Below are positions 15,401 to 41,972 of a stretch of 64,000 nucleotides of DNA, one piece after another; position 1 is the stretch's first letter, and every line of letters starts with the position of its first letter. Both the position numbers and the translations under genes were made by a program. Below the pieces are notes generated by a model, which did no database searches, was not told where the DNA came from, and worked only from the letters and a program-made list of their open reading frames with translations. Origin of the DNA: Selaginella tamariscina (taxonomy: Eukaryota > Streptophyta > Lycopodiopsida > Selaginellales > Selaginellaceae); assembly GCA_003024785.1 (NCBI GenBank), contig PUQB01000625.1:80010-144009 (forward strand). The letters are read 5' to 3'.

Positions 15401-15622
15401 AGCATCTTGGTCCTCGTTTATTTCGATCTCTAAAGCAGATTGCCCATGAAGAAGTTTAAAAAGGAACACTTTGCCAATCAAAAATGCCAAAGAACGTTTA
15501 ATCTGATTAGTAAGAATGATTCCAACACCATCTATCACAGGAACATCGTGATCCAAATTGCCGTAAACAATCCTGGCCATTTTGCAAGCAGTTACCACAA
15601 AGTGACAGAAAAACAATAGCAT
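12475..15622 (-). pseudogene. MULE-like transposase with SWIM zinc finger (frames broken)
   Basis: A series of minus-strand frames gives one transposase-like protein. From its N-terminus: an unrecognised part (15622-15308); a Cys-rich zinc-binding block with CVGSLCCINPDCPASKAGFPNC (15099-14869); a region with LLDHTHVVDKWITLALHVYDP once a one-base shift near 14300 is allowed, carrying the first catalytic Asp; GFMSDEAGAIWQAIRNVF (13735-14157) with the second acidic site; and a C-terminal SWIM finger CSCSEFCNGCQWVPCKH (12475-12990). DDE core plus SWIM is the usual MULE/FAR1-like order. Frame changes occur about five times; some may be introns or assembly indels, so activity cannot be judged. Confidence 0.65.
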
Positions 15623-16228
15623 TACTTAATCATCTTTTGGTAAATATCGGATATTACCATTTCAAAAATTCACAATCATGACTCAACGTGGGAATATTTA
15701 ATTCAAGGAAACGTATAGATCTTAGATGCTAATATAGTATAGCACTTCACATAGAGATAGAGCAATCTTTATTGTCTTTTAAATAAATGTGTGTCTAATC
15801 TACATTCATCTGACATATTTATTTATGACTTGTTTATATTTTAATTTATTTATTTATAATTTATATAGTTATTTGATCCAGTATTTTATCTAATGTAGAC
15901 ATTATAAATACATATTTTTACACGAATATTTATTTAATTATATAATAATATTTTTTTAACATATAAATTTTACTTAAATATGTGTTTGTATTTTATCCTT
16001 TTATATAGTACATTATTTATCAAGTATTGTATATACTTTGTATGGTTTGATTAAACACAGTTTTATAGTTAAGGGTCAAAAGGTTAAATGTTAGATTTTA
16101 GGGTAAAGGTTTAGGGCCGCCCATTCTTCTTGTCCATTCTCCATTGCGAGAGGGCACTTTTGTTCTTTTTTGCGGCCGCTCTTGTTCTCCATTTGCGGCG
16201 ACAGGAGGCTAGTGTGAGCGTCACGGAC
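15623..16228. other. AT-rich gap ending in a short GC-rich patch
   Basis: Mostly AT-rich with no gene. From about 16100 to 16228 the composition turns GC-rich and contains GCGGCCGC-type sequence. This patch leads directly into an ATG at 16229 and looks like a 5' untranslated or promoter segment of the next gene. Confidence 0.4.
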
Positions 16229-17381
16229 ATGGCTGCAGATAAAATCTTATGTATGTGTGTGCAAATTCAATACCAATTTCTGTGCATGTATGTGCGAATT
16301 CAGTAGGATTTCTCTCTATTCACAATGTGCGTGCGCACACACACACACACACCTCCGACATGAGTTCCCATTTCGGCAAACACACACACACACACATTCC
16401 TGCCAAATTCGGCAGGAATTTGCCGCCTGGATGGTGCGGCGGCCGCATCATCTGGGCGGCAGGATTTTCCTGCCGAATTGGGCAGGAAAATCCGTGTGTG
16501 TGTGTGTGTGTTCGCTCACACACACAAATAACATTTATACACACACAAGCTTTTACACACACGTACCACATTATGATTATACAACATTAGACTTGTATAC
16601 ATGTGTGTGTGTGTGTCTCTCTCTCTTAAATATATATTATTATTATGTATATGTATATAATATATATTATTTATAATATATATGTATAAGTATATGAATT
16701 AAGACTTGTATATATGAGATGATGCTTTTTCGTCTGTATATACATGTGAAAGATATAATATACCCATATTCTCTCTCTCTCACACAGACACATCACAAAA
16801 CACAAACAACATTGCACACACACACACATAAGCAACATACACACATACACAAGTAACATTATATAATGAGCACACACACAAACAACATTACACATGTATA
16901 AATATGTGTGTGTGTGCGTGTGTGTCTATATATTGATAGGCATACATATACAGTAAATGTGTGTCCATAAATTAAAACTCACACACACACTCTTATTAGT
17001 TGTTATAATTGCAGAATGAGGCAAAGGCAGAGTAAGAGACTGCGAGATAAATACAAGACTTTGACACTTCAGGAACATATCGTCCAAGAAGCTCTTGTAG
17101 ATATGGCTCCAAAACCTCGTGGCAAGAAAGGAGGCCGAGGAGGTGCCAAGCAACAATTGCAGCGTGAAGAGATGATGTCGACGAACACTGAACCTGTGAA
17201 TAGTTCGCAAGTCATTGATGAACATTCTGTGGTGAGTGAATGGATGCCTAGAAATAGGGAGATTGCAGGAAGCTCTGCAGAACACGGTAATGTAAAAGAA
17301 GTATCGGACATTGATCTTGGTAGTAAAATGCACGTTGTAACTAAAGTGGGCATGATACGTGAAAATGGGAATATAAAATAA
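16229..17381 (+). CDS. Small basic hypothetical protein, probably transposon-associated
   Basis: The clear part is a 121-codon frame at 17016-17381, preceded by a good acceptor (TTGCAG just before 17016). The product is basic at the start (RQRQSKRLRDKYK), has a Lys/Gly/Arg patch (KPRGKKGGRGGAKQQ) and an acidic-polar second half. A possible first exon at 16229-16253 (MAADKILCI) would join in frame across an intron made almost wholly of TG/CA microsatellite with two GC-rich palindromes. I recognise no family. The basic patch suggests nucleic-acid binding. Confidence 0.35.
16397..16493. repeat. Two GC-armed palindromes flanking a NotI-like core
   Basis: The first palindrome (16397-16418) has arms TTCCTGCC/GGCAGGAA around a 6-bp AT-rich centre. 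The second (16462-16493) has 13-bp arms reading GGATTTTCCTGCC and its complement around another 6-bp centre. Between them is GCGGCGGCCGC. GC-rich arms around an AT-rich centre is the same design as the 18-bp palindrome arrays further on, but the sequence differs. Confidence 0.8.
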
Positions 17382-17615
17382 ATTACTAATTAATACTTAA
17401 GTTTTAATTATTAATTAATCATTTAATTAATATGTAATTAAGCCTTAAATATCAATTAATTAATTAATTAATCCTTCAATAACCTTACTTAGTAAGGAAT
17501 ATTCCTAAAATATCTTAGAATGTTCATATTATTCTAAAAATAGTTTATAATAATGAAGAAATACTATCAAACATAATTACAAATGAAATCATTTTCTTAT
17601 CAACATGTTAATTTT
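17382..17615. other. AT-rich gap with ATTA repeats
   Basis: This stretch is dominated by TTAATTAA and (ATTA)n runs and holds no frame of note. A perfect GGAATATTCC palindrome lies at about 17495-17504 and a GAATGTTC at about 17518-17525, both heat-shock-element-like by pattern. Confidence 0.5.
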
Positions 17616-19010
17616 TTATAAATACTTTCTTCCTATCATACAAAGAAATCTTCTTATTTTGTCTAAATCATCACTCTCCGGATTAATCAAATCATTTTGG
17701 TCAATATCTTGATGTTGTTGCCACCACTTAACACTCTCACGAATGCAATTGGGAGTTGCCATCCTTGTTAATACATAAGATGTGATAAGAGAAGGTCTGC
17801 ATAAAGGCTCATCTAAAAACTGATGTTCCTTAAGAATAATATTATAAAGCGCCCGGTTGCTATCCTTCATTTTATAAAATTCAATATCACGAAAAGAAAA
17901 GCTTCAGGAAATGTATGATACGGTGGATACTACTCACAAAAATTTTTGAGATTCTTCTTTTGAAGGCACGTATCCAAGTAGTTCACTAGCTCATCCATGA
18001 TATTGGTATCAGAATATGGATCGAAAGTGATTGGATGAATACAAGCAATGTTTTGGTTGAGCATAGCCTTCTGAGGAGAGTCGTCTACTACTAACATCTG
18101 TGCGTTCTTCATTATCCTTAAGCGACTGATCTCCCCATGAGTCCCAATTATTCTTTCATTCTTGAAGAAGTACGGCTTGCTTTCCTTTCTTATATTGTGA
18201 AATTCGAGAGGTTTATAACATATTCGCTGGTTAAAAATCAATCTTTACGAATCACCTCTTCTGCAACACTACAATGTTTCTTAAGTAAATTCAACATCGG
18301 TGTTAAGTTATGAATCTGCATGCATGACCAAATCCCCACAAGCGCACCCATCTCCTTAAGCTTTTGAAAGAGACGATCCAACCCTGGACGAAAAATAATA
18401 TCATATCGAAATTTACCATGACAAGGAATGAAATCTCCTTGTTTGATTTCTTTTTTTCTATCCTGGGGCCTTTGTCGATGAAGCAGAACACCATTGACAT
18501 CCAACAACACAATATGGCCATGAGTAACATGAGATAGCGTTGCCTCTTGAATACTTTGCAAATCACTTGTTTGCTCCCTTTCACATTTATCCGTTGCCAC
18601 TATCTCGTTGCCTATCCCTTCATCATTTAATTGTACATCATCTTTACAAGATTCAGATATTGCATGCGCTAAAGAAATTGATTTCGGAATTGAAGCCAAT
18701 AAAAATGATGATGAAGTGGCCCCCATAGTAACAATGTTTTGAGCTGCATTATTATCCATTTCCTGCATGAACTCTGTCATTCTGACATGTGGCACAAGAA
18801 ATTGTCGCCAAACCCCTCTCTTACCTCATGCCAATGCTGAAAATCCATGTTCTCAATTATTTCATTACATCTGCAAAATGATAATTAGCTCACCTTAAAA
18901 TTATCAAGGTATATTATTTACCTTGTTAATGTGTGACCCATGTTTGAACTAAAAGCTTCATTAATCCTTGAGAATTTATTTTCTGTACAAATATAAAAGA
19001 AATATACAAA
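17616..19010 (-). CDS. FCP1/NIF-like HAD-fold protein, possibly the 3' part of the ParB-MTase gene
   Basis: The main frames are 18795-18238 and 18241-17930, with a further exon near 17870-17616. The HAD core reads HIVLLDVNGVLLHR (motif I, DxNG rather than DxDG), FRPGLDRLFQKLKEMGALVGIW (motif II region) and MLVVDDSPQKAML (motif III/IV). This matches FCP1/NLI-interacting-factor phosphatases. Plant homologues with DLNG at motif I are common, so activity is uncertain. Upstream exons join in phase: NKFSRINEAFSSNMGHTLTR, CNEIIENMDFQHWHE, then EMDNNAAQN across a GTAAGA...TGCAG intron. The first of these could also splice in phase onto the last exon of the ParB-MTase gene, so the two may be one long gene. 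The last two exon junctions need a one-base shift. Confidence 0.6.
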
Positions 19011-19044
19011 AATGCCTTATGTTACACTCATTTACAACTATTCA

Positions 19045-22000
19045 TCACTCTAAATTCATTATCAATTCTTCTTCGCTATTACCTTCTGAGTGAGGCGAAG
19101 AAGGTCTAAGCCGCTTGTGAGATGGTTCAAGATCTTCTGCATCTTCTATTGATGTTTCCATGGGTCCTGGAGTGTGCGAATGTTCTGTACTCCTCGAGAT
19201 AACTTCCGGTCTAATATCTGATTGAAGTTCGTTCTCAGACTCCGAGATTGAACCAGATTCACCTTCAGAGCTATCGCACTTATCTGGAGGGAACTTTCTC
19301 AAATACGCCTTTATGGATTCGTTGGGGTACTCAGTTGAGACCCAATCTATCCACTTGTTCAGGTCCTCAACCATGGTCTTATCCTTTCAACGGCAAACAC
19401 ACATGTATGCCGAAGGTAACACTCCTTCAAGACGGACCCCCTAGTGCAGTAGTCAAAAACCCACGCATCACTGTGAGGACCCCTAATCAAGTTGACGATG
19501 CTCCGTGCCGCTTGACTTGTAATGTTTGGATAACGTACATTGCCGAATACGTCACTCATACCTATCGGTGTATCGGATGGAGGTTCAGGGCCGTTGGAGT
19601 GCAAACAGATGCCTGGCCAGTCATTTGGAAGCTTGAAATTGTTTGGCGCATTCCTAACAACCAAGTGAACAACGGTATCAATGCACTTGGGATTAGCATC
19701 GTTCATATAAAATCCTGTCCAACGATGTCTATTCTTCTTGGCGAAGGCGAAGGCAAAAGTATCGGTGACATGAGCAAGAATCAAGAAATAAATACCTGAA
19801 AAAGTAGGTATCAGTGAAGAGCGCAAGCATGAATTCAATAATAAATACCTTCTATGTATATGCTTGCACGGCTAAGTTTCTCCACCAGATCCTCTAGTGC
19901 CCTATCTGTCGAAAGATTTTTTGACACCCGCCGATCCATCACGAACAATTGAAACGGTTTCCTACAAGCAGTGATGTTACCCCATAAAGTCTCCGAATCT
20001 AACAACAAACATCTGTAGGGCTTGTCGTGATTCGTAGCATCCTCCTTTATAAGGTTCAATTCGGTTCTCCGCTGCTGAAGGACTGCCATAAGAGAAGGCG
20101 TCATCCCAATGTTCTCCTTTTTGGCGTTGGCGTGCAATAGATTCTTGCCTAGATCTTCCGATTGGTTCACCCATTCGACAAGCATATCATCGTTCGTCAC
20201 ATGCAAATATTTGCTGACCTCTTCATATGTTGAAGTCGAGGTCCAACCCAGTTTGTGGCAGTGTATTCCCAACCACTCCTTGAAATGCCTGACCGTCTTC
20301 AACTCCATTGCCTTGAGATGAAAAGGAGAGGTTGGGCTGCTGTTATTAATTTGTAGTTTGCCATCGATCACCAAATCAGCCAAGACTTCCATCTCCTCCA
20401 TCGTTGTTCCATTTAAAGGCTTCAACCATGTGAGCTTGAAATCGTTGTCTACATCCTTTGTAGATTGAACAGACTTAGCCTTCGGCGTCTTACTGGGTTT
20501 CTTTGCAGACTTTTCTGAGGGCTCCCTTCACTTGTCTGCTTCTTCTTCAGTGTTCCTTTTGAAAAGGATTCCATAATCCCCAACCATTTGGCAAAGATCC
20601 TATCTTCGGGGCAAGAAATCAACATCATCAGAAAGGATGTTTCCTTCCCGCCCACCTGGGCAAAATCAACTGCTGCAATTTCTTCAACTCTCTGAGGAAA
20701 AAGACAGATTAATATACCGGCGAGATAAATCCCGCCCAAACAATTTGCTTACCCGGTATTCCGCAGATTGTGTATTCCCTGCGGTAGCTCTTTGTGGTCG
20801 CTGAAGAGATTCCCACACGGCTCGCGTGTGTTTAAACTTCTCCCATATTTTGCTGTTGTAGTGGTTGGTGTCGGCAGCGTCCCATTCCGCCGATAACTTA
20901 TGGTACTGCTCGATTGTGAGATTCGGCTTAGCTAAAAACGCCGATCTTTTTGTCAGCTTCTCACGGGTATGCTCGGAAAGTTTTGTTGCCATCGTTCCTT
21001 TGTTGTGTTCATCGAGAAGTCGTTGGGCTGCCGTTATTGTGTGCTGGCCACTAATGATGTAGTACTTGATAGATTTTTATTCTCCGTCTGAATCTTCATG
21101 AGTTGTTCTGGTGTTGTGATCCAGACTTTGTCAGCGCCCTTCCTTCTTTCATAGTATGGACACAAAACAGCATTATGTGGAACGGTATAAGAATTGTCGT
21201 CCTTCATCTTCTCCATGAGCTCAGCTACACGTTCCTGGTTGAGTGGCCTGTAATTGAAGTTTGGGTTGACGCTGCAATATTTAACCCTACAAGGATAAAT
21301 CTTATCATCCAACATCATTTCCTTGTGACTTATTGCAGCATGAGATGCCACAGGTGCAGCTGACAAAACGATTGATGATTTTCTTTTGCGATCCGAATCA
21401 ACATGTGTGATCCCCGACTGCAGCTGTTCTAGTGTTCTCGGCACACTCTTCCAGCTCCCGAAGCTTCCTAAGCAAATTGAACGTGATCTGTAGAGAACCT
21501 GAGACCGAGCCACCCTCTCAATCTCCCTTATGATGTCGCTGTGTTCTTCTTCAATGTGAAGAGGGAAGATTGCTCCACTTGCTGATTTTCTGTATTGTGA
21601 AGCAATATCTCCTGACAATACACCTACTCGATGAGTCTGAAGATCTTCGAAGTAGACATCCAGATGGATCCCCTCCATAGATGGGCTTTCGTTGAGTTGA
21701 AGAAGAACTCCAAGGTCAACATCATTAGTGAACACGTGAACGTCATTATCCACAAGTCGACAAAACCACCCGAAATTAATGTTGTAACTGACGACCTCTG
21801 GATCCGAGAACGTGACATTGGATGGAACAAGGCATATCTGTCGAGAATCGTCCAATCTGGGTTCGCAGCCTGCTTTCGGGTGCTTGACTAGCGAATCTAC
21901 TTTCCATTGTTTTGCTTGTCCATGAGATGTGACAGAGGTTAATTTGACAGCAACCATGGTTGCTCCAATGCGCTTCCCATTTATCTTAAAATATGGCCAA

Positions 22001-22192
22001 GTTGATTCCAGAATCCCCCTGCCCATCTCTTCTCCTGCTCTTGTCTTTAATGTCACCTCAATTCCACATCTGAATACAAAAATGATTAGTTCAAGTATCC
22101 GAGTATAACAGATTTTATTTTAATTCTTACCCAGAATTTGACGACGACTCCATACTAATGACTCGATCTCCTTGTTTGATCAAATCGTCCTT
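19045..22192 (-). CDS. ParB/sulfiredoxin-like domain fused to N6-adenine-methyltransferase-like domain (copy 1)
   Basis: Exons on the minus strand: 22192-22131 (open, in phase), 22069-20753, 20691 to about 19850, and about 19800-19045. The ParB-like part includes VNPNFNYRPLNQERVAELMEKM and, after a one-base shift near 21070, YYIISGQHTITAAQRLL, which aligns with the ParB core (eL...I, then GxxR region; here GQHT, so the usual Arg is absent). The later part has a motif-IV-like FQLFVMDRRV (DPPY equivalent with Pro-Pro replaced by Arg-Arg), then DAWVFDYCTRGSVLKEC and VFAVERD, a motif-I/II-like end of a beta-class N6-adenine methyltransferase, followed by an acidic Ser-rich tail. A shift near 19384 in a G run is needed. 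ParB-MTase fusions are known in phages and plasmids; function here is unknown. Confidence 0.6.
20719..20736. repeat. Solitary near-palindrome inside an intron of ParB-MTase copy 1
   Basis: The sequence GGCGAGATAAATCCCGCC differs from the array palindrome by two bases and is identical to a variant in array 1 at about 23782-23799. It lies in a 61-bp intron (20752-20692, GTAAGC...CTCAG, phase 0) and takes up nearly a third of it. Confidence 0.8.
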
Positions 22193-22293
22193 CTGCAAAA
22201 TAATACACTATAATACAAATTATAAAAACGCACACACACTTGTATAAACCCGAATATACAAAAATAATACACAGAGAGAAGTAGACGTAATTA

Positions 22294-22378
22294 ACTGTCC
22301 GAAGCTCACATTTGTGTTAGTGCAAAAGAAAGATAACATTTCGTTTTAGAACCACCACAAATGTGAGCTCTGGACAGT
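22294..22378. repeat. Stem-loop with 23-nt arms upstream of ParB-MTase copy 1
   Basis: The arms 22294-22316 and 22356-22378 are inverted copies with 21 of 23 positions paired, around a 39-nt loop. It lies between the first visible exon of the ParB-MTase gene and palindrome array 1. It could fold in RNA or DNA. A MITE end or a small hairpin RNA precursor are both possible. Confidence 0.7.
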
Positions 22379-22493
22379 TTTACATAGATTCCTAGCTTTT
22401 ACTCGAAATATTATGATAAGATGATAAAAGTAAATAAAATGAGATATGCAACTTATATATACTAATACACATATATATTCACATGGAAGGTGC

Positions 22494-23960
22494 GGCGGGA
22501 TTAATCTCGCCACCCCTTCAATGCCTCCTGAAAGAGTGGGCGGGATTAATCTCGCCACCTTTCTGGAGGCCTTGAACGGGAGTGCGGAATTAATCTTGCC
22601 ACCCTTCTCGGTCTCAGAGAGAACTGGGCAGGATTTATTTCTCACACCCCTTCAGTGACTCCAGAAAGGAGGCGGGATTAATCTCGCCCACCATGTAAGG
22701 GATGGTTAAATGAATTTCCCCACCCTTCCCAATTCTCTCCATTGGTATGTTGAAACCTTCTACGTCTCAGACAGAAACGTTTGGGATTGGTCCGACTCAC
22801 CAATGGAGAAAAAAGAAGGGTGGCGGGATTCATTCCTCCAACAGGCATTGAAGACTCGGCGGGATTAATCCCGCCGCCCAGGGCCTTCACTCGGTCCCTA
22901 TGCGGCGGGATTAATCCCGCCGGACGCCAATTCCCTGCGCGGAATCGGGCGGGATTAATCCCGCCGCCTAGGCACTTCAGGCAGGCCAATGGCGGCGGGA
23001 TAAATCCCGCCCGATTCCGCGCAAGGGCATTGCGTCGCGGCGATTAATCCCGCCTCCCAGGCCCTTCACTCGGGCCTTAGTCGGCGGGATTAATCCCGCC
23101 GAACGCCAATGCCCTGTGCGAAATCTTGCGGGATTAATCCCGCCGCCTAGGCCCTTCAGGCAGGCCAATGGCGGCGGGATAAATCCCGCCCGATTCCGCG
23201 CAGGGCATGCGTACGCGGCGGGATTAATCCCGCCCACCATGTAAGGGATGGTGAAATTAATCCCACCACCCTTCTCAGTTCCCTCCATTGGTATTTTGTA
23301 AACCTTCTCCGTCTCAGACAGAGTTAGTCGGGATTGATTCAACATACCAATGGAGGAAAAAAGGGTGGCGGGATTAATCCCGCCACCGGGCAATGAAGGT
23401 TCGGAGAGATAATCCCGCCGCCCTCTCGTAAATCATGCGCTCACACATATATATTGGCTGCGGCATTTTGAACAGGGATGGGTGGGGCGGGATTAATCCC
23501 GCCGCTTATATCCTGCGGAAGTGCCTGAGCGGCGGGCGGATTAATCCCGCCGTTCATGTCCTGCGTGAATTTCCTGGGCGGCGGGATTAATCCCGCCGCC
23601 TTACGCGCAGGACATGTCATGCAGGCTCTTCGGTTAGCCTTCCGTGCAGGATCTTTCATGCAGCTCTTCGGTTAGCCTCATGAGCGGCGGGATTAATCCC
23701 GCCGCCCATCCCCTGTAAATGCCCTGCGCGGAATCCGCCGGGATTAATCCCGCCCATTAGGGCTTCACACAGGCCATTGCCGGCGAGATAAATCCCGCCG
23801 CATTCCGCGCAGGGCATGGGTGAGCGGCGGGATTAATCCCGCCGCGAGGCCCCTCACGCAGCCATGGGCGGCGGGATTAATCCCGCCGCCATGGCCCCAA
23901 CCATATAGCGGCGGATTAATCCCCGCCGAGGCCAAACTATAGCAGCGGATTAATCCCGCC
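22494..23960. repeat. Palindrome array 1 (GGCGGGATTAATCCCGCC)
   Basis: I count 11 perfect copies of the 18-bp palindrome, starting at 22858, 22904, 22948, 23083, 23217, 23367, 23486, 23580, 23686, 23826 and 23870. About a dozen variants (CTCGCC, GATAAATC, GCCGGG and others) lie among them and towards the edges, including 22494, 22539 and 22671. Larger inverted structures surround them: for example 22937-23022 is itself a palindrome of about 86 bp, and two hairpin-like units at about 22710-22830 and 23265-23375 are copies of each other. The array ends where TG/TA microsatellites begin. Confidence 0.95.
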
Positions 23961-23984
23961 GCTCGAGGGGCTTAGCGTGTGTGT

Positions 23985-24047
23985 GAGAGAAAAAATTAAT
24001 AAATAAAAAAATTATACAGATAAAAACCACACATATATATATGTGTG

Positions 24048-24098
<51 letters not shown>

Positions 24099-24990
24099 TA
24101 TGTATAGGAGTGTACGTGTGTGTGCAAGAGATAGATAAATAAATAAAATTATACAGTACTGGTACACATAATATATGTGTGTACATAGGTATATATATGT
24201 GTGTATATGTATATCGTGTGTATGCGTGTGAGCGAAACAAATAAAATCATACAGATAAACAAACACACATACACACATATATAACACAGGAGTGTGCGTG
24301 TGTGTGCGAAAAATAAAACTAATAAATAAATAAAATTATACAGATAAACACACACATATATATGTGTGTATATAGATATATAACCCATAGAGAAAGAGAG
24401 AGAGTCTGTGAATATATAAGCATATATATAAACTAGTGTTGTATACTATTTGTTAATATGCATTGATTATATATATATATATATATATATGTAAAGCAGT
24501 GTGCGTGTGTGTGGGAGAGATAGATCAATAAAAAAAATTATATAGATACTGGTACACATAATATATGTATGTATATATGTATATAGGTATAATATATGTG
24601 TATATGTATATTGTGTGTATGCGTGTGTGAGCGAAACAAATAAAATCATACAGATAAACAAACACACACACACATATATATACACAGGAGTGTGCGTGTG
24701 TGTGTGAGAGATAAAACTAATAATAAATAAAAATTATACAGATAAACACACACATATATATATGTGTGTATATAGATATATAACCCATATGATATATAAG
24801 CATATATATAAACTAGTGTTTATACTATTTGTTAATATGCATTGATATATATATATATATATATATGTAAAGCAGTGTGCGTGTGTGTGGGAGAGATAGA
24901 TCAATAAATTTTTTTTTATAGATACTGTACACATAAAATTATACGCACACTCTATACATATTACATACATACATATACACACACACACAC
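23985..24990. repeat. TA/TG microsatellites with an about 390-bp tandem duplication
   Basis: Long (AT)n runs at about 24050-24090, 24470-24490 and 24845-24866 alternate with TGTG and GAGA tracts. The segments about 24149-24530 and 24541-24910 are near-identical head-to-tail copies. Open frames here are low-complexity translations and not genes. Confidence 0.8.
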
Positions 24991-25384
24991 ACATCTCACC
25001 TGTGTGCACAGCCGCTGCCGTCGATTTCACAGCCGCCGCCTCCTTGAAACCCTAAGAATAATACCTAAACCCTAAAGAAATAAATATATATATTAACCCT
25101 AATAGAATATTCCTTCTGAGAATATACTTAAACCCTAAAAAGAATAAAATATAAATTCGCCCTAAACGAATATTCTTTCATTATATTATTAGCACGTGGC
25201 GTGTGCGTGGGTGTATCACATACACCCCAAAAATATAAATCATGCAGGGATTTAACATGTGTGTGTCCATGAGGTGTTAAAGTTTCATGTGTATCAATAC
25301 ATACATACACATTGCATATATAATACACATAATATACATACACACGTGTAACACACAGACATACACACATTATTACATGGTTTA

Positions 25385-25847
25385 GGGTTTTTGGATTTAG
25401 GATGGATCATGCATGGTGTTTATGTATGAGAGAAGAGAGAGTGTTAAAAATTATTTTTTGTACACATTGCATATATTAGTACACATATATAACTTACACA
25501 TATACACAGATATACATACATAGTATATGAGAGAAGAGAGACAGTACATATTATGGATCATGCATGGTGTGTATTATACACACAGACATACATACATATT
25601 AGTACATAAATTAGAGAGACCGAGTACATATTACATGGTGTGTATGTTTGAGAGAAGAGAGACAGTACATATTAACATGGATCATGCATGGTGTGTATGT
25701 ATGAGAGAAGAGAGAAAGTACACATATATACATACAGAGTACACATATATACATACACACGTGTATACACACAGACATACATACATATTACATGAGTAAA
25801 TTCATTGTGTTACATATTAGGGTTTAGGGTTTAGGGTTTAGGGTTTG
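25385..25847. repeat. GATCATGCATGGTGTGTAT tandem repeats and interstitial telomeric repeat
   Basis: A unit with GGATCATGCATGGTG and GAGAGAAGAGAGA recurs about four times between 25400 and 25720 with variable spacing. At about 25818-25847 there are four tandem TTTAGGG units, the plant telomere repeat, in an interstitial position. Confidence 0.8.
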
Positions 25848-27417
25848 CTCCCAGCAAGCTTAATATAAATATTACACATGTAAATTCAATGGTTACATAC
25901 ACACAGATTGAGTACATATATCATACATGCGTTGAACATGATGTTTTTAATAAAGAAGCAACATATTTCTTCAGTTTGGTTTAGGGTTGTGCATGTGTGT
26001 GCATATGTGTTTTTTGTAAGTTCTTGTAATGCGTGTGTAAATTTATGATTGTGTTTATATATGTGTGCAACAAACATCGAATAATTAAGAAAATAATATT
26101 AATAAACACACTAGGAACATATTTTAAATTATACATAATAATATATGATTTTATCTAATATATAGCCATATATAGTTTTAATAATATATATTAATTTAAT
26201 ATTGATAAAAAGGTTTAACATTGAAATATTCTTGAAATAATAAGAAATTAATTGAGAAAATCCCATTAATATATACAAATGTAAATTAAGTACTCAAATA
26301 ATTAACTAAATTAATTATCATAATCATGTTTAATATTGGAATATTCTTGGAATAATAAGAAAATAATAAAGAATATCCCATTAATATAAAGAAGATTAAT
26401 TACTCAAGTAATTAAGGAAATGATATTAATATATATATTTTAAAATTATATATAATAATATTATTAATATATGTATATATGTTTTAAAATATATATGTGT
26501 ATAATTTAATATTGATAATAAGGTTTAACACATGAATATTCTTGAAATAATAACAAATTAATTGAGAAAATCCCATTAATATATACAAATGTAGAATAAT
26601 TACTGCAATAATTAAGAACAAGACTAATTTAATTATGATAATCAGGTTTAATATTAGAATATTCTTCAAATATTAATAAAATATTAAAGAATATCCCATT
26701 GATACTAGGAAATGAAAACTAAATACTCGAGTAATTAAGAAAATAATAATAATAAACAGACTATGAATATATTTTAAATGATACATAATAATATTTAAAT
26801 TGTATAAGTATATATTTATATATATATATATATAAATATACTTGAATACTAAGAATGTAGAATATAGTCTAAAATTTCGTAATATTAAACAGCTTGAATC
26901 ACTTGAATAACATTAAATGCAATTTTAAAATACTCATTGGAACTGGAGAGTATATATGTCAGAGTGTCGGATATTTGTGTCAACTCATCTTAAATTTTAT
27001 TTTCTGTTCTTTTTAAAAAATTTGAATTTCTGACATATGTATTGTCGGTCTGACATGTAAATTTGAAAATGCATTTAATTTCCCACTCAAATTCAGATCT
27101 GGTTCTTTCTCCGGCAAGGGTTTCTTCATTTCTGTATTTTTCACTCTTTAGATCTTCTTTTTTCTTCATAGTGATCATCTCAGGAGCGAGATTAAATTGG
27201 GTGCTATTCTTTATAGGAAAGCACGGCGCCTTCAGTGCTGTTTACAAGTAAGTATTATAAACAAATTTAAAAATACTTATTAAGATTCACTCTCTTACAT
27301 TCTCTCTTAAAATTACAATTTAGGGGTTTAGAAATGCATTAGGATTATAATATATTCCGTTAGGGATTTATCACGTTTAAATATCCTTTTAACTTAATAT
27401 TCTAGGTTAACCGGGGC
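25848..27417. repeat. AT-rich spacer with tandem repeats of about 300 bp
   Basis: Segments at about 26200-26490 and 26505-26760 repeat the same order of short blocks (AATATTGATAA, GAATATTCTTGAAATAATAA, AATCCCATTAATATA). GAATATTC-type palindromes recur in each unit. No gene is supported. A possible 36-bp exon at about 27212-27248 is discussed in the findings. Confidence 0.6.
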
Positions 27418-28096
27418 GGCGGGATTAATCCGGCCATTTCTTTTTCGCCTCTTTGAAGAAGTGGCGGGATTAATCCCGCCACCATCTCCCGGGCAATGCT
27501 TCTCCGCCACTGAAAAAGAGTGGCGGGATTAATCCCGTCGATAACCTTCTCAACTGATGAAGAGTTACCAGAATTTATTAGAAAGAGTTGTCGGCGGGAT
27601 TAATCCCGCCAACCATTTTAGGAGGCAGGGAAGGGGTGGCGGGATTAATCTCGCCACCACTTCCTGTTTTAAAGATTTGGGGACAGGATTTATCCCGAGA
27701 TCTCTTTGAAATCATAGTTTTGGAGAGAGTTATGTGCGGGTTTAATCCCGCCACCCATTCCCCGTCGTAAGAATTGTGGGCGGGATTAATCCCGCCTTGG
27801 ACTCCCTCCGACAAGGAAGAGCCGGCGGGATTAATCCCGCCGCCTCTTCCTCCGACGAGGGAGTCCGGCGGGATTAATCCCGCCGACTCTCTCCGGGAGA
27901 GAGTCGGCGGGATTAATCCCGCCGGACTCCCCGAGGAGGAGTCGGCGGGATTAATCCCGCCGGCTCTTCCTTGTCGGAGGGAGTCCAAGGCGGGATTAAT
28001 CCCGCCGACTCTCTCCGAAGGGGTTGAGTCGGCGGCGGGATTAATCCCGCCGACCGTTCCTCGTCGGAGGGATTCGTGGGCGGGATTAATCCCGCC
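27418..28096. repeat. Palindrome array 2 (GGCGGGATTAATCCCGCC), regularly spaced
   Basis: I count 10 perfect copies starting at 27463, 27593, 27779, 27824, 27867, 27906, 27944, 27989, 28034 and 28079, plus variants at 27418, 27522, 27638 and 27735. From 27779 on, start-to-start distances are 45, 43, 39, 38, 45, 45 and 45 bp. The sequences between palindromes are themselves related: the first spacer is the reverse complement of the fifth, and the third (GACTCTCTCCGGGAGAGAGTC-type) is self-complementary. The whole is a nested palindrome. Confidence 0.95.
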
Positions 28097-28250
28097 CATC
28101 AGTTGTATTAATCAAACATGAGATATTATCTCTAAACATAATTATGTATTATTGCATATGCATATTATTAAGTAACCGTAATTCAGATTTCTTAAAAATA
28201 TTGCATAAACAGATATCATAAATAATACAATTATTTATGTGCAGGACAAT

Positions 28251-31200
28251 ATGTTTAATACTGGAGATAAAGTATGTCTTCTTCGGAACAACGAGATAGT
28301 TGGCACTGGAACTGTGGAAGTTCGAGATAATAATGCATCATGTCACAATATTTCCCAAGGATCTTGTGTGTACGTATGGGTGAACACCATTTACAAGCAT
28401 GTTGAGGTTCTGGGAATGGAATTTGAGGAGGGTTCTCCTGTATTGTGGAATTTGGATGAAGTCAAGGCTGACACAAAATATGCAGAGTCACAAACAAATA
28501 GTAGCACGAGTTTACCAGATGATGGCTTGCCTGCTGTGATGGATGAGGTGATTCTCTTTCTTCGTGAGATTGAAGTCGGAAGAGGCATCATCACAGCTAT
28601 AAATCCAATGGAAGCAGTGTCAGAAGAGAAACTAGGGTCCGACTTCGTGGGTGTAGTTGTGACAGAGGTTTCACCTAATGGCACATTGTATCCTGGATCC
28701 CTCGTGAGGTGGCGAACATCTGAATTAAGACGGCAAAGATGGGTCCTATTGTAAGAAAAAGGCGATTCATGGGTTGTAGATCTTCCCTGCAAGTTTCAGC
28801 AAGAGGGTAAAAGATGGATCCTACATCTTCCGAAAGTGTTACGAGCATTTCCACGATTGGACTGTTGCAAGAAGAAGTGTTGTCAGATGATAGACCGGAA
28901 TGAAATTACCCAATGTAGACATGTCTTTCGTATGCTCACCCAAAAGCAAAGGCATGAGTTTGTATATGCTGCACTAACTAGGTGTATTGATGGAATGGCC
29001 TCGGACACAGGTTATCAGAGTACATCCATGGTATTTAATAAGGGTGGCCATCTGCTTCAAAAGCTTGGTACAGTATATACGGGATCCAAAGACCACGTTT
29101 CTACCGTCGGAGGGATGAGTGGCTAGATGGAGCGCGAACCTCAGTTCATGGGAACACTCGCTTGGTCAAAACCCGCTCTCACATCATGGCAGCCATAGAG
29201 ATACTCAAGGCTTTTGTGGAAGCAAATGCAGACAGGATGCCTCACAATCCGAACCACAAATGCAGGGGTCAGGGAAAATCTCAAGGTTTTGCCTTCAATC
29301 TACACTCAATTGAAGCTGTGTGAACATGTGAACAAGTGCCTCAGTTTGATGGGGCCTCAGCAATCTGCACTGGTACCTTCAACAACATATGGAATACTCA
29401 TTTTAAGGATGTGGAGATTGCAAAACACTCTAGCTTTTCCAAGTGTGACACTTGTACATCATTGAAGGCTGCAGAGGCTTGTGCAAAAACCTTGGTGGAG
29501 ATCACTGCCATTCAAAGAAGATGGAGGCCCACATGATTGCACAACAAACTTGCCGGTCTCAGTACTATGCACACCGCATGCTTTCTGTGTCACGCCCATC
29601 AGAGTACCTGTGCTTGATCCATGACAAGATGGATCATTCAAAGACCAGCATTCCAAAGCTCTTTGCAACACCAAAGTGCCTTGGAAATGTCATGAAACTT
29701 CCGATTTCATTGACAGTGTGCTAACACATGGACACGGTTGTGAGTCATATGGACACTTTTCACTTCCACATTGGTCTAGCGACTCCAATTTCACTATTGG
29801 GTCGTTGCCATGTGTTTCAGAAACCTTGAAGCCCACTCACAGACAAGTCCTATCAGTGATCTCAAAGTGAAGAAACAACACCTTCAACCTTTACATAATG
29901 CTCTCATGAACACGTCTGCACTTGAGGCTACTTGGGAATATGAGAGGCATTGTCAACAGCCTGCACAAAAAAGATGGCCCTGTTGAGAGTTCAGGTTCAG
30001 TGGAGGGATCTAGCTCAAATAGTGTACATGTGTCCTCAACATCAAATAAGCTTCCTCGTCATTTGCTTTTACAGATGGATAATTGTGCAGGCGAGAACAA
30101 AAATAGGTAAATCATTTTACTTAAGGGTTTCTCAAGCTCATACTTACTTTTATTTTCTAGATATGTGCTAGCATACTTGTCAATGCTTGTTGCCAAAGGT
30201 GTGTTTGAAACAATCACGCTCAGTTTCCTTATGGTTGGTCACACTCATGAAGATATTGATGCGTTCTTCAGCAAGGTCTCCAACTCTACAAAAAGGACAA
30301 GTGCACTTACCTTACCGCATATGATGAATCTTTTTGAAAATTGCATCTCCAAAAAAAGTTGTGCTTTGCTTGTGACTGAGGTGCCAGACTTCAAAAAATT
30401 TCTCAAGGAGTATATAAAAGAAGGGAGTGATTCTTTAGTTGGTCACCTTGTGCCGCTACAATTCTTTTTCTCCATACGAGATGGTATACCTATTATGCAG
30501 TACAAGTTACGGCCATCAGAGCAGGAGTGGTTACCGAAAGAGGGCTTAATGCTCTTCAAAAGTGGAGAGGATGGAAAGCCACTTCTCCCAGAAGGACAAC
30601 CAGACCCTATTCCATTGAGTGCCCAGCTCAAGGAACAAGAGGTTATTATTGATGGCATCAAAAAATATGTGGCATGGGTTCAAAAATCGATGCCAAAGAA
30701 TTCTGATAAGGCAACTGGTTACTCAGAACTATATAAGCATGTGGTCGACTATTGGGAGACTGTTGTTCGAGAGTTGGAAGGGCCTACTGTCACAAGTACA
30801 GAATTGCAACACCCTTTCTGGCCTAAAACAAGGAGATTGAAATGACATCACTGAGCATAGACGACATAGAAGCCAGTAGTGATGTGGAAGTGCAAACCCC
30901 ACACTTTGTTGGACAAAGGAACCAAAAACCTAAAGCATACTTTGATTGCTGCAGGATCTTCAAAAACTAATGATGGTTCTCATTACTCCAGATGCGTCAT
31001 ATAATCAGCCTATTTGGATGGGTCAAATTATCGACACACCTGAAGTAATCACAAAAAATAGTATTGTTAAGGTTGCATGGTTCAAACCACAAAAAAGGCG
31101 ACACGAGAAGGAGAGCGAAAGATATAATGGATGCCTAGAGAAAACATGGTCTCCCAATCAAAAAGACCCAGCATGTTTTATAAATGTTAAATCCATTCGA

Positions 31201-31296
31201 TATGGTGGATGTCAAGAAGCGTTGATAAAGTCACGATTAACAAAACTGCAAGGGAATGTATGTTTTCTGAAGCTTAAAGCAATTACAAAATTATAA
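28251..31296 (+). CDS. DUF7869-like RNase H-fold transposase-like protein
   Basis: An N-terminal exon (28251-28754) reads MFNTGDKVCLLRNNEIVGTG and resembles the small N-terminal domain of plant transposon proteins. A Cys-rich part follows (RLDCCKKKCCQMI, FSKCDTCTSLKAA). The core has LIHDKMDHSKTSIPKL, LLQMDNCAGENKNR and LMVGHTHEDIDAFFSKV. These give the ordered acidic residues of an RNase H-like nuclease and match my memory of DUF7869 proteins. An intron at about 30108-30161 splits this core cleanly. A C-terminal piece (30946-31296) has a WMGQIIDTPE...VAWFKP block. Several frame changes and a TGA near 29323 lie between 28755 and 29970, so the middle is unreliable. Array 2 ends 155 bp upstream of the ATG. 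An acceptor directly before 28245 suggests a further 5' exon. Confidence 0.6.
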
Positions 31297-31756
31297 AATA
31301 TCATATATTTAATATTCATAATTATTATAAACTCTTTAATAATAGTACCAAATTGTATACTTAACTATATAAATTTAAAAAATGATATGGAAGATTGACT
31401 ATATTATTATAGGATTTTATATATATATTATTACTACTACAAATTTTTAATTAATAATGTTATATTTAAATATTAATATTTTAATAACAACATCAATATT
31501 TATATAATGTACCTCTTATGCTCTTCCTTAATTGTTATATTAGGCAATATATTATATAATTTAATACCTTCTACTTTTATAATGTTATTAATTTTTGTTC
31601 AATGAATGCTATAATTTATTAAAGGGTAGAATACAAAATAGAATATTCTAAAGAATATTCTATTTTCAAACATATATTCTAAAGAATATTCCTTTAATAT
31701 TAGAAAATGCTAATTAAATAGCTAAAATTGCTAATTATTAGAAATGGACTATAGCC
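31297..31756. other. AT-rich gap with heat-shock-element-like palindromes
   Basis: No gene. GAATATTC palindromes at about 31641-31648, 31653-31660 and 31684-31691 are arranged as two closely spaced pairs sharing the sequence TTCTAAAGAATATTC. Confidence 0.5.
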
Positions 31757-34700
31757 ATGCCCATTTTAGTTACAACTTGCATTAAAGCTTTTAACAAGAA
31801 AAGGAAACTGGATGCTCCTGAGGATGTTGCCGAATCATATGTAATTCCGGAACGGCTGACACTTGAGGCTCCATCCAAGCTTCTTGGATCTTGTTATTCG
31901 GTATGACACGGATATTGACACATCGCTACAAAGACGAGACCACTACGTTGCAATTGAGCTTGGTGAGCCTCCGCGTATCCCGGTTCACAGGTTGCTCCCA
32001 CACCAACGTTTGAGGAATGTCACTAACGTTTAATGTCACTAAAAATGACGTGAAAGACCTTGTTGGACGGATTAGAGCTGAAGGATTTTACCAGGAGATG
32101 TCAGTGTTCACCTTATCTTTTGGACCACAGTTGAGTGCTGACGAACGCCGAAGCTGGAATGAGTCAGAAGCACAGGTCGATAGAGAGTTTGAAGCAGATT
32201 TGCATAAGCCAACATTTTCTGTGTGGTATCAGTTTTTAAAAGATGCAAAGTTTCTGGTGTGGGATGGGAATCATCGTTGGGTTGCTTTGAACACTTTGCT
32301 TGCTGAAGAGCCAGGTTTGAAATGGACTTTGCGTGTACGTGCAACACTCATAACATCCACAGCGCAGGAGGAGAAGAGACTGATCGTTGCTTGCAATCGG
32401 TTGAATGAGTAAGTGACTTGTTTGTTTCATTATTTAAATACTAAACAAATGTTGTTTTGTTTTGCAGAGCAACTGCTCGTGTGGTTCCTACAACGATCAT
32501 TCACACCTTGCAGTTCTTACGGAATTGTTGTGTGAAGTCTACAGATCTTTCTACCGATCATGTTCTTCGCGGGATGTCGGAGGAAGATAAAAAAGCTGTG
32601 GAAGTGTGGAGATCAAATAGAAAAGAAGACGTTTGGTACGAGTATCCAAAGACGACATTGGTGAAGATTTTTTGGGAGGTAATCTTTTCTTCTTCTTTTG
32701 ATTGCTTTTTGATTTTTGGTTTCTTTTGCAGAATCAATTGAAGCAACAAATCGCTACAAAACTTGCGAACAGGAAACCAAACCAGACAGAATCTCAGATC
32801 CTCTCTAGCATTTACAAGACATTCACAGTTCGGATGAACAAATTCCTCACCATTGTGATTCGGCGGTCAGCAAAGATTGGTTCAAGGCGATCACAGATAT
32901 CATTATCAAATGATCGACGAAGCAAATAACTTGGAGAAGCTTCAAATGCTCACGAAGTCCCAGCTTCCTTCCAACGTCAAGGTTGATATCCTTGGGAAGT
33001 TTGTGCACATTCAAGAACGTGGCGTTCTTGAGAAGCTGGTGAACATGACGGAGAAAGACAAGAAGGAAGGTGTCACCAGCTGGCCTGACAAGGACTTCAT
33101 CAAGTTTTTGCACATCTTTACTTACTGGTTCCAGGTAATTTAGTATTATATTTTCATTTTTACTCATTTTATCGTGCAAGGTTGGGAAGGCAACTAAAGA
33201 GCTTTTGGTCGAGCATGTAGACGAGTTCATGGCCTGGTATACGAAGATGCACAATGAAATCAAGTTGGATATGTACCAGAACATGCTCGAGAACAAGGAG
33301 TTCGGTGCGACAATTCCACCTTCTCGACTATTTGAGCTGGAAAAGTTTGCAAAAAGAATGGCATTCAGGCAAGTCTTTTTTTTGTTTCTTTACAGATTTT
33401 TATCTATTTTTACAGGTTTTTAAAATGGAAAAATGATGCACTCCCTAAAGATTTCGAAGAGTGGATGGATGTTGCCAAGGATTCTAGCATGTGGAGCCGG
33501 TTGTTATGTGATATCAGTGATTACGAAGTGGAACACTATCCTTTCTGGCTGGATTTCCTTCCTAGTGACTATTCTGAATGGGAGATGGCCAGCTATAAGA
33601 TACACAAGGATGATCGATGAGAGCTATTACGGAAGAACGACAATGCTGCAAGGAAGCTCTATGTGAAGATGGATATCAGGTATGCTAGATCGGCGAGCAA
33701 GGTCAGCAAGGGACAGCTTCTTCTTCAGCCCCATCCTTCATCTTGGCTAGATTGGAAAAATGATATGTTGAGGATGGTGATGCCTGAGCAGGGAAACGGA
33801 AGCTAGGAAATCATTCATGCAGATTCAGAGAACCTTGTAGTCTAGTACTTCAAAGCCGAAAGGCCTTTTCCGTCGAGATTGAAGGAGCTTGAGGATTGGA
33901 TCGTGAGTCACAAGTCAAGTTGGACTATTCATGTGTTTGGTGCGAAGCCTCCACCAAATGCATCCAGGGAGCTGTTGATCTCGTTGTCATTGACCCACCT
34001 ACCGGTTGCGTTGCTGAGGCAGGAGGGATGGTGGATCAATACACAAAGTTCTCGAATGCTTTACTAAAGAACTTGGTGAACCTTGCTTTCGGGATACTAG
34101 ACAAAGCTGGCCATGTGGTGGTGTTTGTGCTACCGGATGATGTTCTAGCTTTGAAGAACACTACAGAAACTTGCAAGCTAAAGTTTCTGTAGATGAGTTA
34201 TATGCACACGACATGGTCATGGGGATACCGTCTCTCTAGAAAGGTAATTCTTCTTTTTGAGAATGTCATTTTTTAATGTTTGTTTTTTCAGGAAAGCATC
34301 ATTGCCATGTGTATTTTTGGTTCCCCCTACTCTAAGGTTGCAAAGAACAAGGAGATCCTGGACACTCGCTACACTCTTTTCTTGATGAGCCAGAAGATTT
34401 CCAACTCCCATGGTATAATGTTGTTTGTTATTTCTCATTTTTTAACATTGTAACTTTCAGGATTTCAATTAGCCTGAAATCTCCCAAGTTGTTTGTGATG
34501 CTAGTGGAGAAGCTCACAACGCTTGGTTATGGAATCGACATCAACAAGGATCTGGTTTTAGCAGCCAGAGATGTCTTCAGGAAGGTCATTTAAGGTGTTA
34601 CAGCAGCTAAAGGTGGTGGGATGATCAAGTCGTTTCCATGATTACTCCTTTTGATGAGTGGAAGAGGGCCATGGAAATAGAAGCATAGGATTTGCCTTTT

Positions 34701-35025
34701 GCTAGCGACAACGATAAAGACTAGGATCTGCCTTCTCGAAACGACGAGGATGTTGGTCCGTGGAGCACAATGACAAGTCATCAAATGAGTCAGCAAAAGA
34801 GAGATTATACGAGTCATCAGATGATGAGTGAGATTTGTTTATCATTTCTTTGGTTTTAATATGTTTTCAATATTGTCCTACCAGACTACGCTAATCAAAT
34901 GGCAAAGAAAATGGTTGAAGAGTTCGAAGTTTACGACAGATAGATTTTGGAGAAACGTTCACGACACCATAACAATGCATTCATTAATGATGAGGCATGG
35001 CTGGTGGAAACGAGTCTTCATGATT
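31757..35025 (+). pseudogene. ParB/sulfiredoxin-like domain fused to methyltransferase-like domain (copy 2, decayed)
   Basis: The N-terminal part reads AIELGEPPRIPVHRLLPHQR, then NVTKNDVKDLVGRI and FLVWDGNHRWVALNTLL, a ParB-like core with GNHR at the GxxR site. A 16-bp tandem duplication at about 32004-32036 breaks this frame. A long helical middle follows (32457-33360). The methyltransferase-like part has GAVDLVVIDPPTGC (motif IV, DPPT) and GHVVVFVLPDD, then LGYGIDINKDLVLAARDVF (motif I/II-like end). In-frame stops are TGA at 33618 and TAG at 33804, 33843, 34686, 34722 and 34941, with recognisable coding on both sides of each. Introns with GT-AG borders remain visible. It is divergent from copy 1, sharing little sequence but the same domain order. 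Confidence 0.6.
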
Positions 35026-37056
35026 GAGTTATGTTTTTATTGTAATTTTTATTTAGTTTGATGCGGTATTTATATAAAAATATAATTATAGTTATAAATA
35101 TAAATATTAAAAAAATAAAAACATAAATATAAATATATATGTCAGATTAACCCCCCAAATTTGTGAAACTTGACACCATTGCCCACCACACCGGAATATT
35201 CTTTATACGAAAACAAATATTTTGTACAAAATGGAATATTTCTGTATGACGGAAATCCGTACGCTCAGCAAACTGTGCTCGAGGAAATGTCAAACCCGCA
35301 TTTGATTGATATTTTGCACTATGCCTTCTCTTTATATTAAGAAAATAATAATGATATAGAACTTAGTCAAGGGAATTAGAAACCCGTGTTTCTCACCTCA
35401 CCTCACCATACACGGATTTGGGTGCATGTGCTATGTGGTTAGTTGTAGACCAACCATGAAGCCCTTATTCTATGTTGGAATGTTAGAAATTTATTCAATG
35501 GGCTAATAAGAATGTACATTAAAACATCTAAGGATTTCATATTTCCGTCTTGTTAAGACTTAAGCATAGTTAAGTGTTTAAAGAAGAAAGTAATCGAATC
35601 AAATTTTATGGGTCTAATTTCTTACCTAAATTGTCTAAGTTTCAAATTTTAAATCATAGTTCACCAAGTATACATCAAAGCAAAAACAAATAAATACAAA
35701 CAAAAATTAAACCATTTTGTAACAGATGCCTAAAGTAGCCTTATGACAACCACTATAATATGTCATATACACATCGACCAAGATCGTAAATAATATGTTC
35801 AACACACCTCAAAATGATCATTTATTACAAATACACTAAATTTCTTAGTAAACAAGAATCATTGCCATATTAGAAGATACCCATTAAACCTTAAAGCAAT
35901 CCCCTACAAACTCTATAACAAATGCATATCAAAGAAGAATGACATGTACCAGAATAGTCACGTTTGTTTTCAAACACATGAGTATAATGCTCGGCTATGT
36001 GCTAGGCTCATTGCACAACTCATAAACAAATATGGTGGTTCACTACCACCTCAAACATGGAATTATATTCCATTAGTAACTCAAATCTTAGGAAGCCAAT
36101 TAAACAAATGCCACTACTGCAAATAGCAAAAGGTAATGAAATATTATACATAAATGCATAAACCAACAAATTGCATAACTTTTTCTAAGCAAACCAACCA
36201 AACATAACATGTCACTCGAGGTCTTTAGTCCTCTACCTTTCAACACAAGCCCGTAGGCAGTGCTAACCTAAGTAACAAGCCAATCAAGTGCATTTATTGT
36301 TACCATGAAGTCGCCACACAACATTGCCCATTCATTACAAATGCCATAAGAAATAACTATTCTCGCAAAGAACATGACCATCAATATACACATGCAAATG
36401 CTTGAACTAATAAATTATTGATAAATATCACTTTTGTACTAAATATAACCAACTTAATTTCGTAATTCATATATATAATTCAAATTTGCTATGCATGATA
36501 ACACTGTGTTTTTAGACCCATTGCAATAACAATTACTTACATGACCTCATTAAATTGCTATATAGTTTTGCCCTTTCTAAATAAATGTAACAAAACTTAA
36601 TTACAACACGTGTCATTCAAAACTTCAAATCTTTACTTTAAAAAGAATTTAAAGAGAGGCATGAGAAATCATTTCCTCCTCACTACCCCGTCTCCTCAAT
36701 TTTATAAAAAAATAAACAAACAATGAGGCCACATACATTAAATCTTAAAGTAAACCCTAAAACCACTTAAACCACCAAATTTTTGGATAGGTCGAAAGAT
36801 CACTCCTTACTTATGTCTTCAATTCACCAAAAAACTTAGTAATCAATGGGACACATGCATCAAACCCTAACCTTATTACATAATTGAAAATCCCCATTGA
36901 AATGTGAAATTGAAGTCCAAAATTCTAAGTAGCTCTTAAACATTATTTCTAGCAATCCATCTTCTCATATCCAAGTGATTTCAAACTATTAAAGCGTTTT
37001 AAAATGCAAACTTTTGTGAACTTAAAAAACATTAAAAATTCGTCCGAATCTATTCA
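34638..37056 (+). repeat. Tandem duplication, copy A
   Basis: This 2.4-kb segment begins within the 3' exon of the decayed ParB-MTase gene and runs about 2 kb downstream of it. It is followed after 16 bp by copy B. It contains a 60-codon frame at 35944-36126 (QNSHVCFQTHEYNARLC...KCHYCK) that I do not recognise; the Cys pairs hint at a zinc knuckle but are incomplete. Confidence 0.95.
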
Positions 37057-41899: not shown

Positions 41900-41972
41900 T
41901 GGAGATGAGGGGCATCGATCCCCTTACCTATCGCATGCGAAGCGATCGCTCTACCATCTGAGCTACATCCCC
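41900..41972 (-). tRNA. tRNA-Ala(CGC)
   Basis: Read on the minus strand this 73-nt sequence starts GGGGATGTAGCTCAG and folds into a full cloverleaf. The acceptor stem has the alanine identity pair G3:U70. The D arm is GCTC/GAGC. The anticodon stem-loop has loop TTCGCAT, giving anticodon CGC (Ala codon GCG). The T arm has stem AGGGG/CCCCT with loop ATCGATG. There is no intron. The start codon of the next gene on the plus strand is six bases beyond its 5' end, so the two share an extremely short divergent spacer. Confidence 0.96.

Follow-up and report, generated by a model that had tools for sequence, protein, structure and literature searches.

Two nested transposon families, each with a ParB-like accessory gene and its own upstream palindrome

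Accessory proteins that combine a ParB-like domain with a DNA methyltransferase have been described in algal transposons. According to the portion of PMC12477816 available to us, Sola1-1_Ec32 of the brown alga Ectocarpus encodes such a protein on the strand opposite its transposase, with ParB-like and N4-cytosine/N6-adenine methyltransferase domains in one chain, and it was suggested to bind and modify its own transposon; the same text cites Iyer 2011 and Petroll et al. for similar proteins in transposons of green and red algae. Here we describe a 64,000-nucleotide stretch of DNA (the window) from a probable land plant, in which two different elements, TE-A and TE-B, resemble Sola1-1_Ec32 in carrying a ParB-like gene on the strand opposite to a transposase gene (DUF7869 in TE-A, assigned by eye only in TE-B). 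In TE-B the likeness extends to a gene with both a candidate ParB-like and a predicted N4/N6 methyltransferase domain. Unlike Sola1-1_Ec32, there are two elements here, each has its own palindrome upstream of the ParB-like gene, and the methyltransferase half of the TE-A protein looks catalytically degenerate. The available portion of PMC12477816 mentions no palindrome or array for Sola1-1_Ec32, and no report of palindromes tied to ParB-methyltransferase transposon genes was found in the open literature searched. The ParB-methyltransferase accessory genes of algal transposons are the known part of this system; the family-specific cognate palindrome is new.

By analogy, the closest functional parallel is likely to be found in the VANC proteins of the Arabidopsis VANDAL transposons, which have an anti-silencing role and motifs of 8-9 bases in one orientation, and for which the available part of PMC5735166 gives measurements of binding and of methylation loss. 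VANC proteins recognise short motifs that differ between families and recur in the non-coding DNA of their own transposon, upstream regions and introns among it. TE-A and TE-B likewise have a family-specific motif repeated in non-coding DNA of their own element, upstream and, in TE-A, also in an intron; VANC motifs evolve as tandem repeats, and the TE-A palindromes lie in arrays. The sites of TE-A and TE-B differ from those of VANC in being palindromes of 17-18 bp, the protein is ParB-like, and the system is known here from sequence alone.

Bacterial ParB-parS systems combine a ParB-type core motif with clustered palindromic sites, as does TE-A. Unlike these systems, both genes have ParB-like core motifs (by eye) in which the canonical GERR is replaced, by GQHT and GNHR, and there are many arrays per genome. 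No ParA-like match was present among the frames scanned, which were part of those of both elements, and with neither a ParA partner nor a GERR-type CTPase motif seen, the elements would not appear to form a ParABS segregation system. Among the prokaryotic proteins in the available part of PMC5512222, Bce_0392 joins an adenine methylase to a ParB domain, which is described as nicking nonspecifically, and phage polyvalent proteins carry ParB-type domains on mobile DNA. A candidate ParB-type domain on mobile DNA is what TE-A and TE-B would have in common with these, and TE-B would share with Bce_0392 the fusion of such a domain to a methyltransferase domain.

An earlier note on this DNA had described two genes on opposite strands that face away from each other, each with a ParB-like core motif, and arrays of a palindrome, GGCGGGATTAATCCCGCC, between them, all of which are present. 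It had also treated the two genes and the arrays as one system, which they are not: the arrays belong to TE-A, TE-B has a palindrome of its own, and the right and left genes come from separate transposon families, with a member of one inserted in a member of the other. An inverted-repeat search on both sides of the arrays gave a pair of terminal inverted repeats (TIRs) with a score of 25.4, against a maximum of 16.8 in 8 shuffles, and the element that they bound is flanked by a target site duplication (TSD). When the flanks were joined with TAAA kept once, the reading frame was open across the junction. An empty site was identified in copy C1g, one of nine stretches of contig C1 (C1a to C1i) that hold the first palindrome sites listed there and are not a random sample; its bases 9474/9473 align directly to positions 17327/31787 of the window. 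C1g is itself decayed and is evidence for the empty site, not for a working gene. Together, the TIRs, the TSD and this insertion-free copy show that TE-A, which holds the arrays and the left gene, landed in the 5′ coding part of the right gene, the TE-B ParB-methyltransferase gene, and split it. The start of the right gene is not near 31.7 kb; its 5′ coding part is found at 17.0-17.3 kb, beyond the far end of TE-A. Both ParB-like genes of the window are decayed, with frameshifts in each and stops in the right one, and open-frame copies exist elsewhere.

The arrays of GGCGGGATTAATCCCGCC are real, with 37 window sites at no more than 3 mismatches, 21 of them exact, compared with 0 in 100 shuffles (coordinates in Table 1). 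Counting at least 4 palindrome sites as an array, the window and the nine C1 stretches contain 19 arrays, and 16 of these are at a fixed place: 8 at 426-442 bp from the ParB-like match and 8 at 149-158 bp from the transposase match, taking the first matched residue of the gene as the end point. For the remaining three, all in C1i, the nearest TE-A gene match is 1.4-2.1 kb away, and one of them lies beyond a TIR of the neighbouring copy. The genome searched for copies, in which the window is C977:80010-144009, comprises 300,702,823 bases in 1,391 contigs, and 20 further loci were excised from it around the TE-A ParB exon; a palindrome lies upstream of this exon in all 19 loci that extend far enough to evaluate (one was cut short), and the site in the intron of the gene is kept in 20/20. 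Arrays scattered through the genome apart from the fusion genes would have spoken against the earlier note, but its link between arrays and the ParB-like genes of a large plant transposon holds in these 19/19 loci, and 16/19 arrays keep a fixed distance from a TE-A gene; the two window genes are now assigned to separate systems. Spacing between neighbouring sites was 42-46 bp in 149 of 253 intervals, and array length varies among copies. In C1i (L027-L029), a 9-site array at 21249-21930 is located just outside a TE-A terminus, with no TE-A gene at the usual distance. Among IMG/VR viral contigs there was no close relative of either ParB exon; one exact copy of the TE-A palindrome was found (L001:146-163), in the only contig there that has the palindrome.

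The palindromes also gave a measure of how widespread TE-A is. Its 16-bp palindrome core has 31,192 exact copies in the genome (control 0), and the six copies with both arrays counted hold 8-26 exact cores each (mean 15.3), from which we estimate about 2,000 TE-A elements, with a range of 1,200-3,900. The exact TIR pattern occurs at 1,350 + 1,292 = 2,642 ends genome-wide (control 0), and 16 inward-facing pairs 10-16 kb apart were seen by eye among the 100 matches listed. All nine C1 stretches contain at least one palindrome array together with TE-A gene matches, and TIR ends were found in eight; in C1g there was no TIR end with up to 6 mismatches, although the window match stops at 17328. A NIF/FCP1-like phosphatase gene accompanies TE-A and was matched in 7/9 stretches (C1a, C1b, C1c, C1e, C1f, C1g and C1i). 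All 150 genome matches to the ParB exon that were scored, out of 3,774 first-look candidates, are 100% identical over 130 residues. The exon has a 478-residue open frame in 5 of the 20 excised loci, and in L035 the ParB exon and the next exon are open, with the last exon open up to the limit of the locus. Such open copies and the estimated copy number suggest that TE-A has been successful recently, and the window holds a copy of this family that has decayed through frameshifts. A programmed frameshift in the TE-A gene was considered and dropped, as other copies are in frame there.

A 4-bp TSD is the defining rule of the Sola superfamily. In TE-A the TSD is exact in three of the five copies with both ends (window TAAA, C1e ATAA, C1f ATGT), fits in C1a only with an assumed 1-base loss, and does not match in C1b. 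The available portions of PMC9587614 and PMC12695648 gave no superfamily for TE-A and leave ParB unmentioned, and the name DUF7869 was not found in the open literature searched.

TE-B has a distinct palindrome. Within the window, GC-rich palindromes with 7-bp arms form just three clusters: both arrays and one at 16.4-16.5 kb, between the two divergent genes of TE-B. One of the palindromes there, GGCAGGATTTTCCTGCC, has 12 exact copies genome-wide (control 0), and each of the 12, at 11 loci, has a TE-B ParB exon downstream in the right orientation, at a distance of 944-1,703 bp; in the window this distance is 1,081 bp after the TE-A insert is subtracted. The agreement was not forced, because only 150 of the 871 TE-B exon candidates were scored. 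The half-sites of the two families differ at one base (GGCGGGA in TE-A, GGCAGGA in TE-B), with TTAA at the centre of one and TTT at the centre of the other. TE-B is likewise a family, with about 60 of the 150 scored candidates at 91-92% identity without stops and one copy with a 941-residue open frame; its outer ends were not found. A second copy of its transposase-like gene, at approximately 90-91% DNA identity, is present in C1h. We take this gene to be MULE-like by eye, with a SWIM-type motif; a MULE assignment was unsupported, there being no such Pfam match.

Several further observations were made on these elements. Several stops in the decayed TE-B gene (31787-35024) are TGA or TAG, which would fit C-to-T change of methylated cytosines, and the 3′ end of the gene is taken in by a tandem duplication of about 2.4 kb (34638-37056 and 37073-39230, 98-99% identity). 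In C1g (L022/L023, near 9796-9826) and C1h (L024/L025, near 4719), the two halves of one TE-A and one TE-B copy look exchanged. In TE-B both breaks are at 17006/17007, and in TE-A they are close to the spacer and to where the left array borders it, in the intergenic palindrome/microsatellite regions; this could be an inversion, a reciprocal rearrangement or an assembly error.

Table 1. Features of the nested elements in the window, in order of position.
Feature	Position	Strand	Basis
TE-B transposase-like gene, MULE/SWIM-like by eye only	12475..15625	-	open frames; second copy in C1h
TE-B palindromes, including GGCAGGATTTTCCTGCC at 16458-16474	16397..16508		GC-rich palindrome search
TE-B ParB-methyltransferase gene, 5′ coding part, cut by TE-A	17016..17327	+	flank joining, C1g
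TSD TAAA, left copy	17324..17327		sequence flanking TE-A
TE-A, inner DNA transposon, 14,455 bp	17328..31782		TIR pair, TSD, empty site elsewhere
TE-A left TIR, 27 bp	17328..17354	+	25/27 identical to right TIR
TE-A phosphatase-like gene (NIF/FCP1 domain), approximate extent	17616..18825	-	PF03031 2.1e-12, joined exons
TE-A ParB-like gene, degenerate methyltransferase-like C-terminal part	19045..22207	-	core motif; single-base frameshifts here
Single palindrome, 2 mismatches, in intron of TE-A ParB-like gene	20719..20736		20/20 loci
Left palindrome array, 22 sites, upstream of TE-A ParB-like gene	22494..23887		palindrome search
AT-rich, tandem-repeat-rich stretch between both arrays	23976..27414		composition and repeats
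Right palindrome array, 14 sites, upstream of transposase	27418..28096		palindrome search
TE-A transposase gene (DUF7869), decayed in window	28239..31296	+	PF25273 4.2e-27
TE-A right TIR, 27 bp	31756..31782	-	TIR pair search, genome-wide TIR pattern
TSD TAAA, right copy	31783..31786		sequence flanking TE-A
TE-B ParB-methyltransferase gene, remainder: stops, frameshifts, motif I deleted	31787..35024	+	DndB-like, phrog_6025 matches

Around the nested region, a family scan of the window returned matches to pectinesterase, BAHD-type transferase, Rab-GAP, S1 and WD40, and the window looks like nuclear plant DNA. A tRNA-Ala (CGC) was predicted by ARAGORN at 41900-41972 on the minus strand.

The two proteins were assigned to ParB as candidates on their motif and layout; the TE-B core, FLVWDGNHRWVAL, matched DndB with an E value of 0.0098, below the Pfam cutoff. 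For the C-terminal halves, the earlier note had proposed methyltransferase-like domains in beta order, with motif IV ahead of motif I. This stands for the family of the right gene, where C1g has motif IV VIDPPI followed by motif I VVDLTVGTG; the window copy has VIDPPT at motif IV. The C1g sequence matched PF01555 (E 6.2e-5, 23.5 bits, slightly under the curated cutoff of 26.7) and a PHROG DNA methyltransferase (E 5.2e-5), the window copy matched phrog_6025, also a DNA methyltransferase, at E 0.11, and the best match of TE-B in the PDB, using three joined pieces of C1g as the query, was MboIIA (E 0.0052), in an alignment that pairs both motifs, IV before I. These matches point to an N6-adenine/N4-cytosine methyltransferase domain in the TE-B protein. 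The beta order was not upheld for the left gene, which has DRRV at the motif-IV position in the seven copies read (window, C1a, C1b, C1c, C1g, L035 and L040), has lost this stretch in one diverged copy, and retains a motif-I-like stretch by eye. The C-terminus of the TE-A protein also matched a designed repeat protein (E 4.7e-6; also 0.00096), but this was rejected as the sum of nine weak repeats.

We consider it probable that the palindromes near the promoters are what lets each ParB-like accessory protein recognise the element that encodes it. In both elements the ParB-like gene diverges from the transposase gene (in TE-B by eye), with private palindromes in the upstream region that they share. 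We infer that the ParB-like protein is the palindrome binder, and that it would bind its own palindromes as a dimer, next to the promoter of the ParB-like gene and that of the transposase gene. Dense and phased arrays in TE-A may load many dimers at both promoters, and the spacing, most often 43-46 bp and so close to four helical turns, would place the bound dimers on one face of the DNA. The predicted outcome is self-recognition of the element's own DNA. It is possible that the methyltransferase domain of TE-B marks the palindrome site, while in TE-A, where DRRV at motif IV favours a binding role, the protein may occupy the arrays and shield the promoters from silencing, or it may autoregulate.

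The nesting, the array-gene linkage, the 12/12 agreement in TE-B, the regular spacing, the methyltransferase matches of TE-B and comparisons among copies speak for this reading. The palindromes are less divergent from the window than adjacent spacers in 9/9 copies (p 0.0065 to 6e-13; C1a to C1i each against the window copy), as for example in C1e with 19/554 differences against 171/1221; these counts used a loosened palindrome definition, since a stricter one had favoured sites that are intact in the window copy. In 8/9 copies (the exception being C1i), the arrays had a lower ratio of CpG to other transitions than the genes did. As a proxy for loss of DNA methylation this is only suggestive, and we do not rely on it because non-equivalent spacers may be aligned and the palindromes were chosen as intact in the window. 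For pairs with dS >0.12, after badly matching residues were filtered out, dN/dS stayed below 1, in keeping with coding constraint: in the TE-A ParB-like gene it was 0.12-0.57 and 0.06-0.45 in two ParB segments and 0.12-0.35 and 0.23-0.46 in two C-terminal segments, and it was 0.36-0.56 in the transposase segments; no pair of the TE-A phosphatase was divergent enough. In TE-B, single pairs gave 0.33 for the methyltransferase part and 0.35 for the transposase-like gene.

A number of points weigh against recognition by the ParB-like proteins. Alignment of the arrays may pair non-equivalent units and thereby inflate spacer differences, though the closest pair, C1b, still has 4/643 against 38/1470 (p 0.0019). 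The residue filter biases all dN/dS values low, and the TE-B ParB piece has a single-pair value of 0.65 over 52 codons. With 12 exact copies of GGCAGGATTTTCCTGCC against 871 candidates, most TE-B copies would have diverged forms or none, and the TE-B copy in C1h is without it. Apart from the DndB match under cutoff in TE-B, no ParB family match was found for either gene in Pfam, PHROG or NCBIfam, and a large protein database had no match for either gene or for an open ParB reading frame. The ParB and methyltransferase folds expected by the earlier note were not confirmed structurally, as the single fold obtained, which AlphaFold gave for the TE-B ParB exon, had low confidence (pLDDT 52.8) and no PDB match below E 0.38. 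The ParB cores of TE-A and TE-B are weakly similar to each other in hhalign (E 0.062; 0.24-0.6 for the other five pairings). The TE-A gene had no methyltransferase match in the family libraries, and its C-terminal part did not match the methyltransferase part of TE-B (hhalign E 0.52). Lastly, an upstream position alone would also fit a host factor or the transposase as the binder.

If the transposase is that binder, the arrays would play the part that subterminal repeats have in En/Spm-type elements, and the ParB-like protein would have another role. The nearness of one array to the transposase start (149-158 bp) and a weak TNP1/En/Spm match at the transposase N-terminus (E 0.044) are consistent with this, but the arrays lie well inside the element, with 5,166 and 3,686 bp between them and the TIRs, instead of subterminally, and in 12/12 cases the TE-B palindrome goes with the ParB gene. 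We regard transposase sites as unlikely. Ordinary promoters need few sites for a transcription factor, and this is relevant to a host factor as the binder, in which case the palindromes would be captured E2F-like sites that serve as promoters, with transcription of the element expected in S phase. The half-site GGCGGGA/TCCCGCC presumably resembles the E2F core, the position is promoter-proximal, and a similar half-site, GGCRGGA, in both families fits one shared factor. Against this, TE-A has 8-26 exact cores (six copies), more than such promoters need, at near-helical spacing and around a TTAA centre, and the centre differs in TE-B; we find captured host sites improbable.

Differences in array length among copies, together with the tendency of tandem repeats to expand by slippage, could also mean that the arrays are functionless satellite DNA, expanding and homogenised within a high-copy element. 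Such DNA would not be expected to keep palindromes less divergent than their adjacent spacers in 9/9 copies, to hold a fixed distance to two different genes in 16/19 arrays, to conserve a single site in an intron, or to have a distinct counterpart in TE-B, and a satellite origin seems very unlikely to us. As for both ParB-methyltransferase genes and the arrays acting as one segregation or copy-control system, the genes do point outward from the arrays in the window, but with the right gene interrupted by the array-carrying element, as the TIRs, the TSD and the insertion-free C1g show, C1g refutes this and we give it practically no chance.

A broader and rather doubtful extension is that unrelated plant and algal transposon superfamilies share a ParB-like self-recognition module acting like a eukaryotic parS. 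In that case the protein would load at the arrays at the element's own promoters and spread over the whole element, a changed half-site would separate the families, and the element would stay readable, apart from host silencing. The interest of this locus lies in two nested families that each have a gene-palindrome pair, and not in two genes sharing one array. For the algal cases, the available portion of the source offers a guess that the protein binds or marks its own element, with no target site given, whereas here two families come with exact candidate targets. The two family-specific palindromes provide a built-in specificity control for a test of binding and methylation, and the pairing suggests that the protein of each element may recognise and control its own DNA.

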